A stretch of 39,332 nt of DNA from Phycisphaerales bacterium (GTDB lineage Bacteria > Planctomycetota > Phycisphaerae > Tepidisphaerales > Tepidisphaeraceae), in assembly GCA_020847545.1 (NCBI GenBank), contig JADLBV010000039.1:1-39332 (forward strand), read 5' to 3'. Positions within the stretch are counted from its first letter, which is position 1. Every line of letters starts with the position of its first letter. This document shows positions 11,793 to 24,679 of the stretch, in pieces. The notes below the pieces were generated by a model. The model had not been told where the DNA came from and did not search any database. It saw nothing but the letters and a program-made list of their open reading frames with translations. Position numbers and translations under genes: made by a program.

Positions 11793-13351
11793 ACAACCCC
11801 GCCCATCCAACTTCAACGACACCCCCACCCCCCGCCGCGGCCCGGCTGGTGGAGATCATGGAAAACCTCCCGGCCGCCACCATCGCCCTGGTGGGCGATT
11901 TGATGCTGGACCGGTACGTCTACGGCAACGCCGAAAGACTCTCCCCCGAAGCCCCCGTGCCGGTGCTTCATTTTCAACGACAGGAACACCGCGCCGGCGG
12001 CGCGGGATCGGTGGCGGCCAATCTGGCCGCGCTGGGCGCGGCCGTGCGAATGGTCAGCGCGGTGGGTGAGGATGACAATGGCAAACTGCTCCGCCAACAT
12101 CTGGCACAGGCGGGTGTGGATGATTCGGCCATTTTGCGCATCAACGGCCGGCCAACGGTCTGCAAATTGCGCCTGGTGGGCCTGGCGCAGCACCGCCATC
12201 CACAGCAGATGCTCCGGCTGGATGATGAGGATTGTCGCCCGCTGCCAGGTGAAGTGGTTCAACAGTTGCGACAAAATCTGGTCGATTCGCTCGATGGGGC
12301 GAGTGCGCTCTGTATTGAGGATTACAACAAGGGGTTGCTCAGCGATGATTTCTGCAAGCAGATCATCGCCGAGGCGCGCTCGCGAAAGATCCCGGTGCTG
12401 GTTGATCCGGCCGCCATCACCGACTATTCCAAATACGCCCACGCCACCGCGATCAAGCTCAATCGCACCGAAACCCAGCAGGTCACCGGCATCGACATGA
12501 ACGAGCCTGCCCATTTTGAGCCGGCCGCCCGGCGGCTGATCGACATGCTCGACCTGGAGGCGGCCATCATCACACTCGACAAGAGCGGGGCTTATCTGGC
12601 CACCCGCGACGGACCATCGCATTGGCTCAAAACCCGACCAAGGCAGGTGTACGATGTCACCGGCGCCGGTGACATGGTGCTGGCGATGCTGGCGATGGCG
12701 AGATCGGCCGGGGCCACCTGGGCGGAGGCGGTCGCCTTGTCGAACATCGCCGGCGGGTTGGAAGTGGAGCGATTCGGGGCTGTGCCGATCCGGCCGGGGG
12801 AGATCATCGAAGAATTGATGAGCGACCTGCGGCTGCATCTGGGCAAACAGCGAACGCTGCCCAATTTGCTGGTCGAACTGGGCCGCCACCGGGACGCGGG
12901 GCGGAAAATCGTCTTCACCAACGGCTGTTTTGACCTGCTGCACCTAGGCCACATCAAATATTTCCAGTTCGCCAAGGCGCAGGGGGATTTGCTGGTGGTG
13001 GGGGTCAACACCGACGACAGCATCCGCCGACTCAAGGGCAATTCACGGCCGATCATCCCGCAGGCCGACCGGCTGGCGGTGCTGGAGGAACTGGAGAGCA
13101 TCGACTATCTGGTGCAATTTGACGATGATACACCCTTGAATTTGATCCAACAGATCGCCCCCGATGTGCTGGTGAAGGGTGCGGATTATCAAAAGCAGCA
13201 GGTGGTCGGGTGGGATCTGGTGGAATCCAAGGGTGGCCGGGTGGCGCTGGCCCCGCTGATCGACGGCCGAAGCACCTCGGCGGTGATTCGGCGGATTCTG
13301 GAGGCGCACGGGGGGCAGAGAGGGGGAGAGGGGGAGAGTGGGAGCGGGTGA
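11789..13351 (+). CDS. hldE: Bifunctional heptose kinase/adenylyltransferase HldE
   Basis: This 520-residue protein joins two enzymes of ADP-heptose synthesis. The N-terminal ribokinase/PfkB domain (about residues 20-345) phosphorylates D-glycero-beta-D-manno-heptose 7-phosphate at C1; it has GDLMLDRYVYG near residue 36 and the catalytic GAGD near 291-294. The C-terminal nucleotidyltransferase domain (about 370-505) has TNGCFDLLHLGH near 377-388, containing the HxGH-type ATP motif. Both active sites look intact. The N-terminal 17 residues are a Pro/Thr-rich extension. Its ATG overlaps the stop of the TPR gene by four bases. The partner enzyme GmhA is encoded next on the same strand; the phosphatase GmhB is not in the window. 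Confidence 0.95.
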   Translation: MNNPAHPTSTTPPPPAAARLVEIMENLPAATIALVGDLMLDRYVYGNAERLSPEAPVPVLHFQRQEHRAGGAGSVAANLAALGAAVRMVSAVGEDDNGKLLRQHLAQAGVDDSAILRINGRPTVCKLRLVGLAQHRHPQQMLRLDDEDCRPLPGEVVQQLRQNLVDSLDGASALCIEDYNKGLLSDDFCKQIIAEARSRKIPVLVDPAAITDYSKYAHATAIKLNRTETQQVTGIDMNEPAHFEPAARRLIDMLDLEAAIITLDKSGAYLATRDGPSHWLKTRPRQVYDVTGAGDMVLAMLAMARSAGATWAEAVALSNIAGGLEVERFGAVPIRPGEIIEELMSDLRLHLGKQRTLPNLLVELGRHRDAGRKIVFTNGCFDLLHLGHIKYFQFAKAQGDLLVVGVNTDDSIRRLKGNSRPIIPQADRLAVLEELESIDYLVQFDDDTPLNLIQQIAPDVLVKGADYQKQQVVGWDLVESKGGRVALAPLIDGRSTSAVIRRILEAHGGQRGGEGESGSG

Positions 13352-13544
13352 CAAGGTGCTGGATACTAGGTGATAGGTGCTGGGTGCTAGGTGCTGGGTA
13401 CTGGGTGCTGGAGGAATTCCTAACCCCTTGCTCCTGGCCCCTAACTCCTGACAAGGTGATGGTTGCTAGGTGATTGGGTGTTGGGTGCTGGGTGCTGGGT
13501 GCTGGAGGAATTCCTAACCCCTTGCTCCTGGCCCCTAACTCCTG
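13351..13544. repeat. Tandem duplication (about 100 and 94 bases)
   Basis: Two adjacent units, 13351-13450 and 13451-13544, fill the gap between hldE and gmhA. The last 50 bases of each (13401-13450 and 13495-13544) are identical, while the first halves differ by small changes. The first half of each unit is itself a run of GGTGCTGGGT-type decamers. The second unit ends about 15 bases before the gmhA start, so the array lies in the gmhA leader. No gene is visible here. Confidence 0.85.
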
Positions 13545-20281: not shown

Positions 20282-21421
20282 ATGAATCCCCCTCGTCGCA
20301 TTCTCATCAACGGTCTCTCCATCGGCTCCGGCGGCGGATACACCGTCGGCCGGGAATTGTTCCGCCACATGGCTGAACTTCGTCCCGATTGGACCTTCAC
20401 CCTCGCATTGATCGAAGGGCATACCCTTCACGACAACTTCAGGCGGGAATCGCTGCCGACCAACGCCCATCTCCTCTGGGCTCCCGCCACCACCCTTCGA
20501 CGGGTGGCGCGCAACAAGTATGAAAATGATGCGCTGGTCCGCTGGGCCATCGACAATCACGTCAACGCGGTCGTGCAGCTCAATGGGATGGTGATCAGAC
20601 GGATGCCCATTCCCACGCTGGCCCATTTTCAGGACCCCTGGCCCTATCGCACCGAAGCCTGGACCAGCAGAAAAGACCCGGTAATCGCCTTTCTCAAACG
20701 CCGGGCGCACGCCCGGGCGCTGCGGTTGGCCGCCTGCTGCGGATTCACCAGCGCCTATCTGCGCGACCTGATCGTCGGCCGACTGCGAATCCAACCCAAA
20801 CGCGCGGAGGTCTTCTACAACGGCCTCCCTCCCTCCTGGATCGAACGCGCCGGTGGTTTGTTGCCCGACTGGAACGCCCGCCCCATGGAGATGGCCTCGG
20901 TCAGCAATGTCGGCCCCTACAAGCGCCAGTCGTTGGTGATCGAGGCGCTGCCGCAACTGGTCAACCGGCCGGGATTGGAAAAGCTGATCTACCGCATCGC
21001 CGGACATTGCCCGGCCGACTATCGCGCCCATCTTCAATCGCTGGCGCGACGATTGAGTGTCGAAAAGCATGTTGTGATCGAAGGGCGGGTCTCCGATGCC
21101 CGCGTCGAGGAGATTCTTCGCCAATCCCGCTGTTTCGTCCTGATGAGCGTCTGCGAATCCTTCGGCATCCCCGCCATCGAGGCGATGAGTTTCGGCACCC
21201 CAACGGTCGTCAGCGACTGCTGCGCCATGCCCGAAGTCTGCGGCCAAGCCGCCGACCTCTCACCGGTCGACGACCTGCCCGCCCTCACCGAAAACCTCGC
21301 CCGCGCCCTGACCGACCCCACCCACGCCGAACAACTCCGCCGGGCCGGGGCGGCACAAGCCCAAAAGTTCCAATGGCGCCAAACCGCCCAGCAAATGGCC
21401 GAGTGTCTTGGGGGGTTTTGA
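20282..21421 (+). CDS. Glycosyltransferase family 4
   Basis: This 379-residue GT-B enzyme begins with ILINGLSIGSGGGYTVGREL, typical of GT4 N-terminal halves with a glycine loop, and ends with the donor site: CFVLMSVCESFGIPAIEAMSF containing the E-x7-E pair, then GTPTVVSDCCAMPEV. It should transfer a sugar from a nucleotide donor. It starts four bases after the kinase gene, so the two are probably co-translated. The repeat-rich block starts right at its stop codon (TGA at 21419-21421 overlaps an AT-rich interspersed repeat), so the last residues may have been altered by the repeat. Confidence 0.9.
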   Translation: MNPPRRILINGLSIGSGGGYTVGRELFRHMAELRPDWTFTLALIEGHTLHDNFRRESLPTNAHLLWAPATTLRRVARNKYENDALVRWAIDNHVNAVVQLNGMVIRRMPIPTLAHFQDPWPYRTEAWTSRKDPVIAFLKRRAHARALRLAACCGFTSAYLRDLIVGRLRIQPKRAEVFYNGLPPSWIERAGGLLPDWNARPMEMASVSNVGPYKRQSLVIEALPQLVNRPGLEKLIYRIAGHCPADYRAHLQSLARRLSVEKHVVIEGRVSDARVEEILRQSRCFVLMSVCESFGIPAIEAMSFGTPTVVSDCCAMPEVCGQAADLSPVDDLPALTENLARALTDPTHAEQLRRAGAAQAQKFQWRQTAQQMAECLGGF

Positions 21422-21453
21422 TTTACGATTTTAGATTTGCGATTTTCGATTAC
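21420..21453. repeat. AT-rich interspersed repeat, copy 1
   Basis: This is a run of GATTTTAGATTTGCGATTTT-type words starting at the stop codon of the glycosyltransferase gene. The same family recurs at about 22541, 22714-22761, 23599-23659 and 24639-24679. Translated, the complement gives a characteristic NRKSKI/NQKSKI peptide. Confidence 0.8.
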
Positions 21454-21484
21454 AGGTGAATACCAAGAATCCAGAATATAATGT

Positions 21485-21551
21485 GCCACCGAGGCACAGA
21501 GATCACAGAGAAGATAAGAGAATTTCTCCGTGTTCTCTGTGTCTCGGTGGC
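21485..21551. repeat. Inverted repeat with CACAGAG words
   Basis: Arms 21485-21512 and 21524-21551 are 28 bases long and complementary except for about three positions, with an 11-base loop. The arms are built of CACAGAG/CTCTGTG words bounded by GCCACCGAG. A related but split and expanded version lies at 22589-22708 in inverse orientation, on the other side of the unknown gene. Confidence 0.8.
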
Positions 21552-21614
21552 TTCTTCTTTCTTTATCATCTTATCACCCCTTCATCATCCCCCAATCCAA
21601 TATCCAAAATGAAA

Positions 21615-21650
21615 GGGCGGCGATCCCCGCAAGTGGGAGGACCGCCGCCC
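21615..21650 (-). terminator. Rho-independent terminator of the unknown gene
   Basis: GGGCGGCG (21615-21622) pairs with CGCCGCCC (21643-21650), with a further inner stem. Read on the minus strand the hairpin follows the stop of the 21685-22404 gene by about 35 bases and is followed by TTTCATTTT, a U-rich tail. Confidence 0.7.
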
Positions 21651-21684
21651 GGCGTAGCATCATAACCCAATCAAGGCGGTAACA

Positions 21685-22404
21685 TCACGCCGCCCGGCTG
21701 ATCGGCCCATCGCTGTCGCGAATCGCGCTCTGCGCGGTCGGGGGGCCGTACTGCACATAGGTGTTGATCGGCTCGCAGCTTGGGCCGCACTCCTGCATCG
21801 GGTTGAACCAGCAGGCCGTCAGCCAGACCCGGCTGCCGGTGGGGATGTCGGCCGCGAGGGTGATGCTGAACTTGGTGCGCGAATCGGTCCCTTCAAAGGT
21901 CCAGTCGCGCAGGTCCTGCGGGGCGGTTTCACCGACGAAGCTGAAAAGGCGCGCGCCCGCCACGCCGGTGGGTTTGCCGCGGCCGCTCCCCTGCTTGTGC
22001 AGGCGGATCGAGACCGTTCGGCCGCTGATCGACAAAATGTCCATCTGCGGCGCCTCGGTCGGCGCGGGGATCGGGGCGCGTTGGGCGCGGATGTTCAATC
22101 CCAGCGCCTGCCGCTGGGCATCGGTGACGATCGGGTTGCTGCGCACGAATTGGCCCAGTTCCCGGCTGATGGCGATCAGCGACAGCTTGGCGATGTTCTT
22201 GGCCAAGATGGTCGCATCGCCGCGGGTGGAGGGGTCGGTCGCGGCCGTCAGGGCGGTGGCGTAGGCGGAGCGCTTCTCCCCATAGCTGGTCGCCTGCGAG
22301 ATCGACAATCCGTAGGTGACGGGGGCCGCGTTGATGAGCGTGTCGAAATTGGCCGCCCAGTCGCGCAGACCGGAATCAGATTCCGGCAAATATTGGATCG
22401 ACAT
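21685..22404 (-). CDS. Protein of unknown function in a repeat-bracketed cassette
   Basis: This 239-residue protein is not assigned to a function. The N-terminal half (residues 1-110) is helical and contains ASYGEKRSAYATAL-like and AKLSLIAISRELGQFV segments; the C-terminal half (about 120-230) looks like a beta-sandwich with a TACWFNPMQECGPSCEP segment carrying three cysteines close together. There is no signal peptide or membrane helix. AAGGAAGTGG lies upstream of the ATG at 22404, giving a good start; the longer open frame to 22710 runs into repeats and is rejected. The gene has its own terminator and is flanked by inverted copies of a composite repeat. Similar helical N termini occur, to my recollection, in uncharacterised planctomycete proteins. 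Confidence 0.75.
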   Translation of the reverse strand: MSIQYLPESDSGLRDWAANFDTLINAAPVTYGLSISQATSYGEKRSAYATALTAATDPSTRGDATILAKNIAKLSLIAISRELGQFVRSNPIVTDAQRQALGLNIRAQRAPIPAPTEAPQMDILSISGRTVSIRLHKQGSGRGKPTGVAGARLFSFVGETAPQDLRDWTFEGTDSRTKFSITLAADIPTGSRVWLTACWFNPMQECGPSCEPINTYVQYGPPTAQSAIRDSDGPISRAA

Positions 22405-22504
22405 GATCCACTTCCTTTCCCGCGCTGAATTGATGCGCGGATGAATTGATCGCCCGATCCCGGCGGCGGCTCGACAATCGACCCGCACGGATGTCGGGTG
22501 GGCT

Positions 22505-22523
22505 TTTTGTTCATCGAACAAAA
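22505..22523. promoter_or_regulatory. Perfect dyad upstream of the unknown gene
   Basis: TTTTGTTC (22505-22512) and GAACAAAA (22516-22523) are perfect inverted arms around ATC, about 100 bases upstream of the start at 22404. The size and symmetry suit a repressor operator, but no regulator is identified. The spacing does not fit the usual LexA boxes. Confidence 0.3.
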
Positions 22524-22540
22524 TGGAGGAGAGACTTGAT

Positions 22541-22761
22541 GGGATTTTTGATTTTTGATGATGAAGGGGTGGCAAAGAAAAATTTTGCCACAGAGCCACA
22601 GAGAGCACAGAGAAAAACACAGAGGATTTTTCTTCTCTGACTTCGGCGAGCTCAGTCGAGTCGTGGCCTCTGACTTCGGCGAGCTCAGTCGAGCCGTGTC
22701 TCGGTGGCACATTTGATTTTCGTATTCAATCCAAAATCGCAAATCTAAAATCGAAAATCCC
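22541..22761. repeat. Composite repeat block, inverse counterpart of 21420-21600
   Basis: This gene-free stretch holds, in order, a GATTTTTGATTTTTGATGATGAAGGGGTGG segment split by a TTT run, CACAGAG words at 22589-22616, two 26-base direct copies of a CTCTGACTTCGGCGAGCTCAG-type word (22635-22660 and 22668-22693, period 33), CTCGGTGGCAC at 22700, and an AT-rich repeat at 22714-22761. Read in reverse complement, the AT-rich word, the GTGCCACCGAG word, the CTCTGTG words and CACCCCTTCATCATC appear in the same order as in 21420-21600. Confidence 0.7.
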
Positions 22762-22790
22762 ACCGCCGGCCATCGCCGATGCGGCCAAAA

Positions 22791-23000
22791 GAATCTCCGC
22801 AACGGTCAAAAGAGTCTCGTTGAAGTCCAAAAATGTCCCGGTATGCCGGAAAGAAGACTCGCTAAGCAAGATGGAAGTCTGGGCACGGTGGAAAGAAGCC
22901 TCGGTGCGCAAGAAAGAAGTCTCGTGACACCAGAACGAAGTCTCGGCAAGCAAGAAAAGAGTCCCGTCGCGCCCGAAAGTATTTGCCGCAACCGGTCAAA
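22791..23000. repeat. Degenerate 21-base tandem repeat, about ten units
   Basis: Units start at 22791, 22812, 22833, 22853, 22874, 22895, 22916, 22937, 22958 and 22979, nearly all exactly 21 bases. The core is GAAGTCTCG followed by variable bases and ending in AAA. Because 21 is a multiple of three, open frames read as seven-residue repeats on both strands: an xxxETSF-like heptad on the minus strand (open 22726-22953) and an RSLGxxE-like heptad on the plus strand. No start with a Shine-Dalgarno was found, so it is listed as a repeat and not as a gene. Confidence 0.75.
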
Positions 23001-23032
23001 GTCGTCCGGTGATGGTGGACCAACGGGTGGAC

Positions 23033-24586
23033 CTACGCATCGGGAATCTGGTCGGGGGCGCCTTCCAGCAGGCGCGGCTTGTTGGGGGGGGGGGGGTTGC
23101 CGGTGGCGATGATGCCGGGGGGGAGGTCCTTGAAGACACTCCCCCGCGCCCCCAAAAGAGAGCGGGCGCCGATCGTCACCCCCGGGCCGACGAAGGCATC
23201 GGCCGCGATCCAGACATCCTCCTCCAGCACGATCGGGGGACGAAGCAGGGGGAAGGAGCGCTGGCTGTGGTCGTGCGTGCCGGCGCACAAATGGGCGTAT
23301 TGGCTGATGACGCAGTGTCGGCCGATGGTGATTTTGCCCAGTGAATAGAGGATCGCGTGGTCCCCGATGATCGCCCCATCGTCGATGGAGAGATTCCACG
23401 GGATCTCAATGGTGGCCGAGGGGCGGATGCGCACCCCTTTGCCCACCTTGGCGCCAAAACCGCGCAGCAAAAAGCGCCGCCACCCGTACCAGTTGTGAAA
23501 CGAGTGGCGAAAGAGGGTGGCGCGGGTGATCATCCATATAACTCGCTTTATTTTTTCCATGGTGCTCCAGGGGCTTTGGTGGCGGGAGGGGGGAGTTTCG
23601 ATTTTTGATTTTTGATTTTGGATTTCATTCGACAATCGCAAATCCAAACTCGAAAATTCATCGGTGAGGGGAGAGGGGGAGGAGGGGGAGACGGGGGGTT
23701 CGATCAGTTGTTGGTGGTTGGTCTTCAGGGTGTCGATGTTCGGGTGGGCGGTCTCTTTGGCCCGTTGTTTGAGTTCGTACAACTTCAGGCTGGTGATCAG
23801 TTCGTGGGAGGAGATCAACAGGCAGAAGCGCAGGCCGGTCATTCCATCGAGAAACCCCAGTTTAAGAAAATACATCCAGAGGAACCGCCCCAGCCATTTG
23901 GCGGGGAGTCTGGGGTAGATGTGGGTCTTGAAAAAGCGCCGGCGCTCCACGCTGGAGCCGAAGGCATCGGGTTTGATCAGGTTGCGATCCGGCAGGGAGT
24001 GGGCGAAGTAGAGGGTCTCGGCCTCCAGGGTGGAGTAGCGGTTGTGCTTGGCGATGTAATGTTCAAGTCCGCGACGGTCGTTGTGTTCCAATAGGTGCTT
24101 GAGGAATCCCTGCGGGCCATCGACGATCATGTGTTCATGGACGGGTCGGTCTTCGTAGCGCGCTTTGCCCCGTTTGAAGAGGCGAAGGTTCCAACTGGGA
24201 AAGTAGCCGCAGTGGCGGATGCGCTTTCCCAGAAAGAGCAGATAGCGGTTGATGTAAAAGCCGCTTTGGGGGACCGAATCGGCCGGGCGGGCGCACAACT
24301 GTTCGATCTCCCGGCGCAGTTGGGGGGTGATCGCCTCATCGGCATCCAAAATCATCACCCAGGGGGACTCGAAGGGGAGGTTGTCCAAGGCCCAGTTTTT
24401 CTGGCGGGCGTAACCCTCCCATGCGTGTTCCACCACCGTGGCCCCGGATGCGCGGGCGATCTCCAGCGTCCGGTCGGTGGAGCCGCTGTCCACCACGAAA
24501 ACCCGGCCGGTCCAACCGGCCACGCTCGCCAGCGCGTGGGGGAGGTTTTGTTCCTCATTAAAGGTCTGGATCAGCACATCGAGCAT
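23033..24586 (-). CDS. Fused GT2 glycosyltransferase and hexapeptide acyltransferase
   Basis: This single 517-residue frame holds two enzymes. Residues 1-about 300 are a GT2 of the WaaE/KdtX-like type: LIQTFNEEQNLP at the start, DSGSTDRT near 32-39, and the metal site DADE near 80. Residues 343-517 are a WcaF-like left-handed beta-helix acyltransferase with hexapeptide turns (IGDHAILYS, IGRHCVISQYAHLCAGTHDH, VGPGVTIGA). The joining segment (about 305-342) contains the NEIQNQKSKIE peptide encoded by an AT-rich interspersed repeat, so the fusion probably arose when a repeat removed the stop between two genes. An internal ATG at 23560 with GGAG upstream could still give a separate 175-residue acyltransferase. 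The C terminus is altered by a 13-base C tract. The longer frame to 24718 is repeat sequence. Confidence 0.82.
   Translation of the reverse strand: MLDVLIQTFNEEQNLPHALASVAGWTGRVFVVDSGSTDRTLEIARASGATVVEHAWEGYARQKNWALDNLPFESPWVMILDADEAITPQLRREIEQLCARPADSVPQSGFYINRYLLFLGKRIRHCGYFPSWNLRLFKRGKARYEDRPVHEHMIVDGPQGFLKHLLEHNDRRGLEHYIAKHNRYSTLEAETLYFAHSLPDRNLIKPDAFGSSVERRRFFKTHIYPRLPAKWLGRFLWMYFLKLGFLDGMTGLRFCLLISSHELITSLKLYELKQRAKETAHPNIDTLKTNHQQLIEPPVSPSSPSPLTDEFSSLDLRLSNEIQNQKSKIETPPSRHQSPWSTMEKIKRVIWMITRATLFRHSFHNWYGWRRFLLRGFGAKVGKGVRIRPSATIEIPWNLSIDDGAIIGDHAILYSLGKITIGRHCVISQYAHLCAGTHDHSQRSFPLLRPPIVLEEDVWIAADAFVGPGVTIGARSLLGARGSVFKDLPPGIIATGNPPPPNKPRLLEGAPDQIPDA
23084..23096. repeat. Homopolymer tract of 13 G (13 C on the coding strand)
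   Basis: Thirteen consecutive G lie in the acyltransferase coding region near its end, encoding four consecutive prolines. A length change would shift the frame of the last 17 or so codons. Such tracts can be phase-variable or be sequencing errors. Confidence 0.85.
23560..23568 (-). promoter_or_regulatory. Internal ribosome binding site and start for the acyltransferase half
   Basis: On the minus strand GGAG (23568-23565) stands four bases before the ATG that begins at 23560. The ATG encodes the Met at residue 343 of the fused protein, exactly where the acyltransferase domain begins. It is likely the original start of a once separate gene and may still be used. Confidence 0.5.
23599..23659. 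repeat. AT-rich interspersed repeat inside the fused gene
   Basis: This copy of the GATTTTTGATTTTTGATTTTGGATTT family is arranged as an imperfect palindrome: the left half reads on the plus strand and the right half (to 23659) is its inverse complement. It lies in frame in the linker of the GT2-acyltransferase fusion and encodes a Lys/Gln/Ser-rich peptide. Confidence 0.8.
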
Positions 24587-24638
24587 GGGTCCATCTTGCC
24601 ATGAAAGGGGTTTGTTGGCCAGATGGGGATGAGGGTGG

Positions 24639-24679
24639 GATTTTTGATTTTTGATTTTTGATTTGCGATTTTGGATTGT
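24639..24679. repeat. AT-rich interspersed repeat, copy before the acetyltransferase gene
   Basis: Three tandem GATTTTT words are followed by GATTTGCGATTTTGGATTG. It lies between the divergent starts at 24586 (minus) and 24780 (plus), so it is in the shared upstream region of the fused transferase and the second acyltransferase. Confidence 0.8.

Follow-up and report, generated by a model that had tools for sequence, protein, structure and literature searches.

Iteron and centromere arrays, for example parC upstream of parM or the iterons of plasmid origins, place helically phased tandem sites 5' of the gene for the protein that binds them, and RAYT transposases are thought to mobilise REPs. 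In the RAYT/REPtron layout, the gene lies between inverted palindromes that are dispersed through the genome and clustered in intergenic gaps (PMC2817692). In TIGR-Tas, a tandem array, in some cases composed of stem-loops, stands beside a dedicated gene (PMC12045711).

The locus described here lies in a window of 39,332 nucleotides (the whole stretch of DNA that was analysed) from a Phycisphaerales bacterium of the Planctomycetota. RAYT/REP and TIGR-Tas are its nearest systems, and for each of them at least one defining feature was looked for and found to be absent. As in the RAYT layout, the window gene stands between inverted palindromes that are dispersed genome-wide, here termed A (24 sites) and B (33 sites). 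Unlike a RAYT gene, which always lies between two inverted REPs, the gene is, among the copies examined, bracketed at the window copy only, and the others have one hairpin or none; the family also lacks a Transposase_17 (HUH/Y1) domain, reaches up to 21 copies per genome, is accompanied by palindromes that differ between copies and carries a 21-nt array that is foreign to the RAYT layout. The likeness to TIGR-Tas is that repeats resemble one another inside a locus and differ from those of other loci (PMC12045711), but the units measure 20-22 nt as opposed to the 36-nt tigRNA units, they are without the two repeats separated by 8-12-nt variable spacers, the protein combines a three-helix and an Fn3 domain with no recognised Nop domain, and the array is found upstream only. 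With iteron and centromere arrays the locus shares short, helically phased tandem units directly upstream of a gene, although here the binding by a protein is putative; in contrast to them, it is chromosomal and multicopy, its units differ at every locus, and no ribbon-helix-helix or HTH family is recognised in its protein. Palindromes A and B, in turn, resemble REP and BIME elements in being short, dispersed, clustered and often located just after genes, but are built of repeated 7-9-nt words. A non-exhaustive search of the open-access literature returned no account of any 20-22-nt self-complementary array in combination with such a protein and no report of 21-bp arrays in Planctomycetes.

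Layout of the locus and its dispersed palindromes

The preliminary description had read the locus as a possible mobile cassette, in which long inverted composite repeats enclose one gene with its own ribosome-binding site and terminator. All the modules it had named are present in both flanks, in inverted orientation, and the bracketed gene is indeed preceded by a ribosome-binding site (AGGAAG) and followed by a GC-rich stem that makes a candidate terminator, as judged from sequence. The features are as follows.

21420-21451, + strand: palindrome A, left copy, made of 7-nt words GATTTTN; dispersed type
21483-21553, + strand: hairpin B, left copy, made of CACAGAG words, with 28-nt arms at 89%; dispersed type
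21575-21589, + strand: 15-mer CACCCCTTCATCATC, left copy, common to both flanks only
21615-21650, - strand: candidate terminator, a GC-rich stem 3' of the gene (GGGCGGCG ... CGCCGCCC)
21685-22404, - strand: gene for the 239-aa protein, with an N-terminal three-helix domain and a C-terminal Fn3 domain, ending in -AA
22410-22419, - strand: predicted ribosome-binding site GGAAAGGAAG
22540-22559, + strand: A-like sequence words at the inner edge of the right flank
22557-22571, - strand: the same 15-mer, inverted copy, exact match
22584-22712, - strand: hairpin B, right copy, enlarged by two 33-nt direct repeats (22635-22698)
22713-22762, - strand: palindrome A, right copy, inverted relative to the left copy
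22758-23020, - strand: degenerate tandem array of about 11 units of 21 nt, reading CTTTCTTGCnnnCCGAGACTT on the strand of the gene, which lies about 350 nt downstream of the array

The left flank aligns with the reverse complement of the right flank at a score of 167, compared with at most 73 in 200 dinucleotide shuffles, and the 20-mer GATTTTAGATTTGCGATTTT is exact in both A copies. The 15-mer is private to the flanks, with exactly two matches in the 3.75-Mb genome, one per flank, which marks the flanks as mutual copies, as opposed to common repeats inserted twice by chance. Self-complementarity is likewise present within either flank (scores of 135 and 111 against its own reverse complement), so that the inverted relation between them rests mainly on the spacer and the 15-mer.

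Across the 3.75 Mb, the A pattern GATTTTNGATTTGCGATTTT is matched 41 times with up to 3 mismatches and the B pattern CACAGAGnnCACAGAG 52 times at 1 mismatch, as opposed to zero for the reversed control patterns of both. Compared side by side, the copies of A and B are ordinary intergenic palindromes of varying loop length, and the two adjoin at only two loci, that of the window and one on contig C97. In related genomes, the count of B ranges from 0 to 219 independently of the family gene: G002 has 219 matches and zero family genes, and G012 has ten family genes and zero B. Being dispersed, and in the case of B independent in number of the gene, A and B are therefore REP-like elements and not the terminal repeats of a cassette; they are independent of each other, and each flank is a complete palindromic repeat as opposed to half an element. 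The inverted composites around the window gene would be intergenic palindromes of this REP-like kind, which accumulate where genes of the family end and were in this case duplicated locally; they probably serve as terminators. An Rfam search of the B hairpin returned sub-threshold, microRNA-like noise only.

Several further observations concern these repeats and their surroundings. A 24-nt module, GGCTCGACTGAGCTCGCCGAAGTC, is inserted at the CAC^AGAG point of B hairpins at several loci, including L038, L057 and L058, and is present twice in the right flank of the window (22635-22698). In G012, TTAGGGCCTAGG or AACGCAAAG hairpins begin no more than about 50 nt from the stop codon of the family gene at loci L217, L219, L220, L222, L223, L225 and L226. 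Further along the window, a single open frame (23033-24604) comprises a family-2 glycosyltransferase and a hexapeptide acetyltransferase joined via an in-frame A repeat (23589-23657); the second half has its own ATG, and a same-genus genome has an equal-length gap at the matching place. Another A repeat (24636-24676) lies directly 5' of the next hexapeptide transferase gene, and the period scan marks a period-14 repeat stretch at 13308-13508 (z 7.7).

The protein family and its upstream array

The window protein matches no family in Pfam, NCBIfam, PHROGs, PADLOC or the PDB sequences, and members of its family gave scattered weak single-member matches only. Its structure model (pLDDT 91) places a three-helix domain at the N terminus and an Fn3 domain at the C terminus, the latter a beta-sandwich at residues 111-219 (Foldseek E 3e-5; VIA Z 12.3 at 2.0 A over 95 residues). 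Taken by itself, the helical domain has no fold match at E <= 0.001, and its weak S23/bAvd-like hits (E about 3.7, TM 0.5) are a lead only. Specifically, Transposase_17 (Y1/HUH) has no Pfam match in the window protein and is absent among 28 members of the family; the Nop domain has no Pfam match either, and the Foldseek and VIA hits are dominated by the Fn3 domain. The genome search that had been proposed for the 239-residue protein yields nine dispersed copies or relics, and a relative holds up to 21. The gene occurs in 13 of 61 genomes and, over the phylum, in 9 of 294, always with several copies each; named relatives come from the metagenome-assembled genomes of Phycisphaerales bacterium RYN_433 and Humisphaera sp., and no relative was found among plasmids, phages and viral contigs. 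The protein thus belongs to an undescribed multicopy family that is patchy across Planctomycetota. Nearly all family proteins in alignment A1 end in -AA, which is reminiscent of C-terminal degradation tags.

The array of the window (22758-23020; TRF period 21, 5.2 copies, 63% matches) lies just outside the stretch to which the preliminary description had drawn attention. A first scan of both sides of 31 copies indicated that period 21 recurs upstream. Among the 98 family copies with at least 450 nt available on each side, 48 are preceded within 450 nt by an array of 20-, 21- or 22-nt units and none is followed by one (sign test 7e-15), in counts that are not independent because the copies are related. 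Arrays precede 6 of 6 copies in G119, 5 of 5 in G071, 15 of 20 in G022, 3 of 6 in G001, 4 of 8 testable copies in G010, 3 of 6 in G011, 1 of 8 in G006 and 0 of 10 in G012; G071 and G119 come from other families of the phylum, and all 11 copies examined there have an array, which can come close to touching the gene. When 1.05 Mb were scanned for periods of 10-63, the strong matches were nearly all 20-22 nt or multiples, plus three others, and even among the 29 copies without a clear array the commonest best lag is 21 nt (8 of 29). In contrast to this constancy of length, the units are alike within a locus and different in sequence at every locus, and the 260 nt upstream of 71 copies hold no common motif except the ribosome site.

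No 20-22-nt array occurs in about 725 kb of this genome's long contigs. Strong 21-nt arrays without the gene do occur at G000:C60:2388-2779 (L195) and G000:C73:7251-7641 (L196), where they adjoin A and B hairpins, at loci that were chosen for their A and B sites and are hence no unbiased sample of gene-free arrays; the 360 kb examined of G022 contain several more. Arrays are thus not confined to the family gene. Nevertheless, the gene carries an array far more often than chance and on one side only, and these counts establish the pairing of array and gene into one module. In G022, gene-free arrays also occur as neighbouring pairs (L282 18121-18804; L288 10854-11608), one pair having periods 20 and 21 side by side.

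The units are self-complementary more often than chance. Compared with column-permuted units, a dyad reaches p <= 0.05 in 24 of 57 arrays (combined p 2e-14), and the folding of concatenated units as RNA gives a mean z of -1.9 over 51 arrays against the same kind of control, with within-unit pairing slightly above that after unit shuffling. The gene strand is somewhat favoured (p = 0.005 for the z difference with G-U pairs allowed, p = 0.055 by folding). Examples of such units are TGCCC-GCAA-GGGCA, which occurs with TGCTC-TCAA-GAGCA, and ATACTK-NNNN-MAGTAT. The window's own array is weak in this respect (dyad p = 0.19, folding z +0.3), being too decayed to show dyad symmetry.

On the midpoint-rooted family tree, the deepest split, as drawn, has arrays on either side. 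The array period in part follows the protein phylogeny: three of the four period-20 arrays fall in one protein clade (support 100/99), and array labels are more clustered on the tree than in most shuffles. Unit length, at about 21 nt, is kept while the unit sequence turns over. Specifically, two sister genes in G119 (L265 and L266) share 78% identity over a stretch that runs from the start codon to 600 nt beyond the stop, and their arrays differ, with the outer stem changed, except for a kept TGAA-nnn-TTCA core. Close paralogues in the genome of the window likewise have unrelated array units, and the array of the paralogue on C66, the closest to the window gene in this genome, also differs from that of the window. 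As to inheritance, a locus on C36 of this genome is syntenic with C40 in G001, and some copies are therefore vertically inherited; the polysaccharide cluster of the window is syntenic with G001:C60, where a different family copy lies at the opposite end of the variable part. Separately, the DNA similarity of L265 and L266 extends more than 600 nt past the stop, and a downstream part may belong to the module there.

Explanations of the locus

The best available explanation, to which we give an even chance, is that the locus is one copy of a two-part module, a 20-22-nt array followed by the three-helix/Fn3 gene, in which the array forms a putative chain of dyads or hairpins bound by the adjacent protein. 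Such a chain could act as DNA, with two helical turns per unit, or as gene-strand RNA; the protein encoded beside it would be its putative partner, and their binding would give control or maintenance of the module. Against this reading stand G012 and G006, in which clear arrays are absent or nearly so, the gene-free arrays at C60, at C73 and in G022, and the weakness of the window's own array.

Rather unlikely is a model in which a separate regulator uses the array as its operator, with iteron- or enhancer-like binding sites spaced by two helical turns, and the family protein does something unrelated. A unit of 21 bp does equal two DNA turns, and many loci have an array that starts 100-350 nt 5' of the gene, where it could precede a promoter, but a shared regulator would not allow units to differ even between sister genes.

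The excess of hairpins at gene ends and the proximity of B keep alive a REPtron-like rival, in which the protein mobilises dispersed palindromes (A, B and others) around its copies. At many family copies, a long hairpin of a dispersed word family lies within about 60 nt of the stop codon; long 3' hairpins accompany 19% of family genes as compared with 7% of control genes (p = 6e-4), the controls being drawn from two genomes only and the background in G022 being high. This gene-end test is fairer than the other excess of long hairpins near family genes, which is a comparison between different genomes. Additionally, 4 of the roughly 14 TTAGGGCCTAGG hairpin sites in G012 adjoin its 10 family genes, and in the genome of the window 3 of the 8 other copies or relics have a B within 1 kb (p = 7e-4). 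However, no nuclease or transposase family was detected in the protein, G002 and G012 have B without the gene and the gene without B, and different copies are accompanied by different palindromes, all of which argues against mobilisation by this protein and makes it an unlikely account.

The existence of gene-free arrays and the lack of a conserved unit sequence among close paralogues would suit minisatellites that tolerate any long intergenic gap and are unrelated to the gene. The strict upstream position (48 versus 0), a period fixed at 20-22 nt over the phylum and in part following the protein clade, and the dyads within the units render this decidedly unlikely.

As for a mobile cassette, the dispersed, multicopy gene family stands, as does the absence of a transposase, but the long terminal inverted repeats do not. 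The inverted flanks with their private 15-mer had made such a cassette plausible; it is now largely refuted and very improbable, since A and B are separate families that elsewhere occur alone (a finding qualified by the B hairpins near other copies), either flank is palindromic by itself, and the bracket is absent from every other gene copy examined, including the C66 paralogue (64% identity), which has a B hairpin upstream only and whose DNA similarity to the window covers the gene and not the bracket. At the position syntenic with C66, a same-genus genome is without the gene and the array, but the flanks are rearranged and offer no clean junction. The window copy is likewise missing from the matching place in that genome's polysaccharide cluster, where the left-flank glycosyltransferase has no orthologue, and no target-site duplication was seen.

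Finally, a guide-RNA-like function, with short RNAs processed from the array and used by the protein, as in TIGR-Tas, would fit locus-specific arrays with a dedicated neighbouring gene and the tandem, palindromic nature of TIGR stem-loop arrays (PMC12045711), but is extremely doubtful given 20-22-nt units without a pair of long variable spacers and a protein in which no Nop domain is recognised.

Meaning for the family

A unit whose length persists while its sequence is replaced at every locus points to selection that acts on size and symmetry and not on sequence. Tentatively, and with somewhat less than even confidence, the family could represent a chromosomal nucleoprotein module of a new kind, in which about 10-25 small hairpins or dyads of 20-22 nt, free in sequence, are combined with a three-helix/Fn3 protein, in multiple copies in Planctomycetota and with its ends associated with dispersed palindromes. 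In repeated instances, as with CRISPR, TIGR and partition sites, a tandem array and the gene dedicated to it have proved to be a whole biological system. The pairing may also be relevant to the way in which intergenic palindromes, the CACAGAG hairpin among them, come to adjoin the genes of this family, and, as the family is abundant and unnamed, a function for it would cover many genes that are at present annotated as 'hypothetical'.
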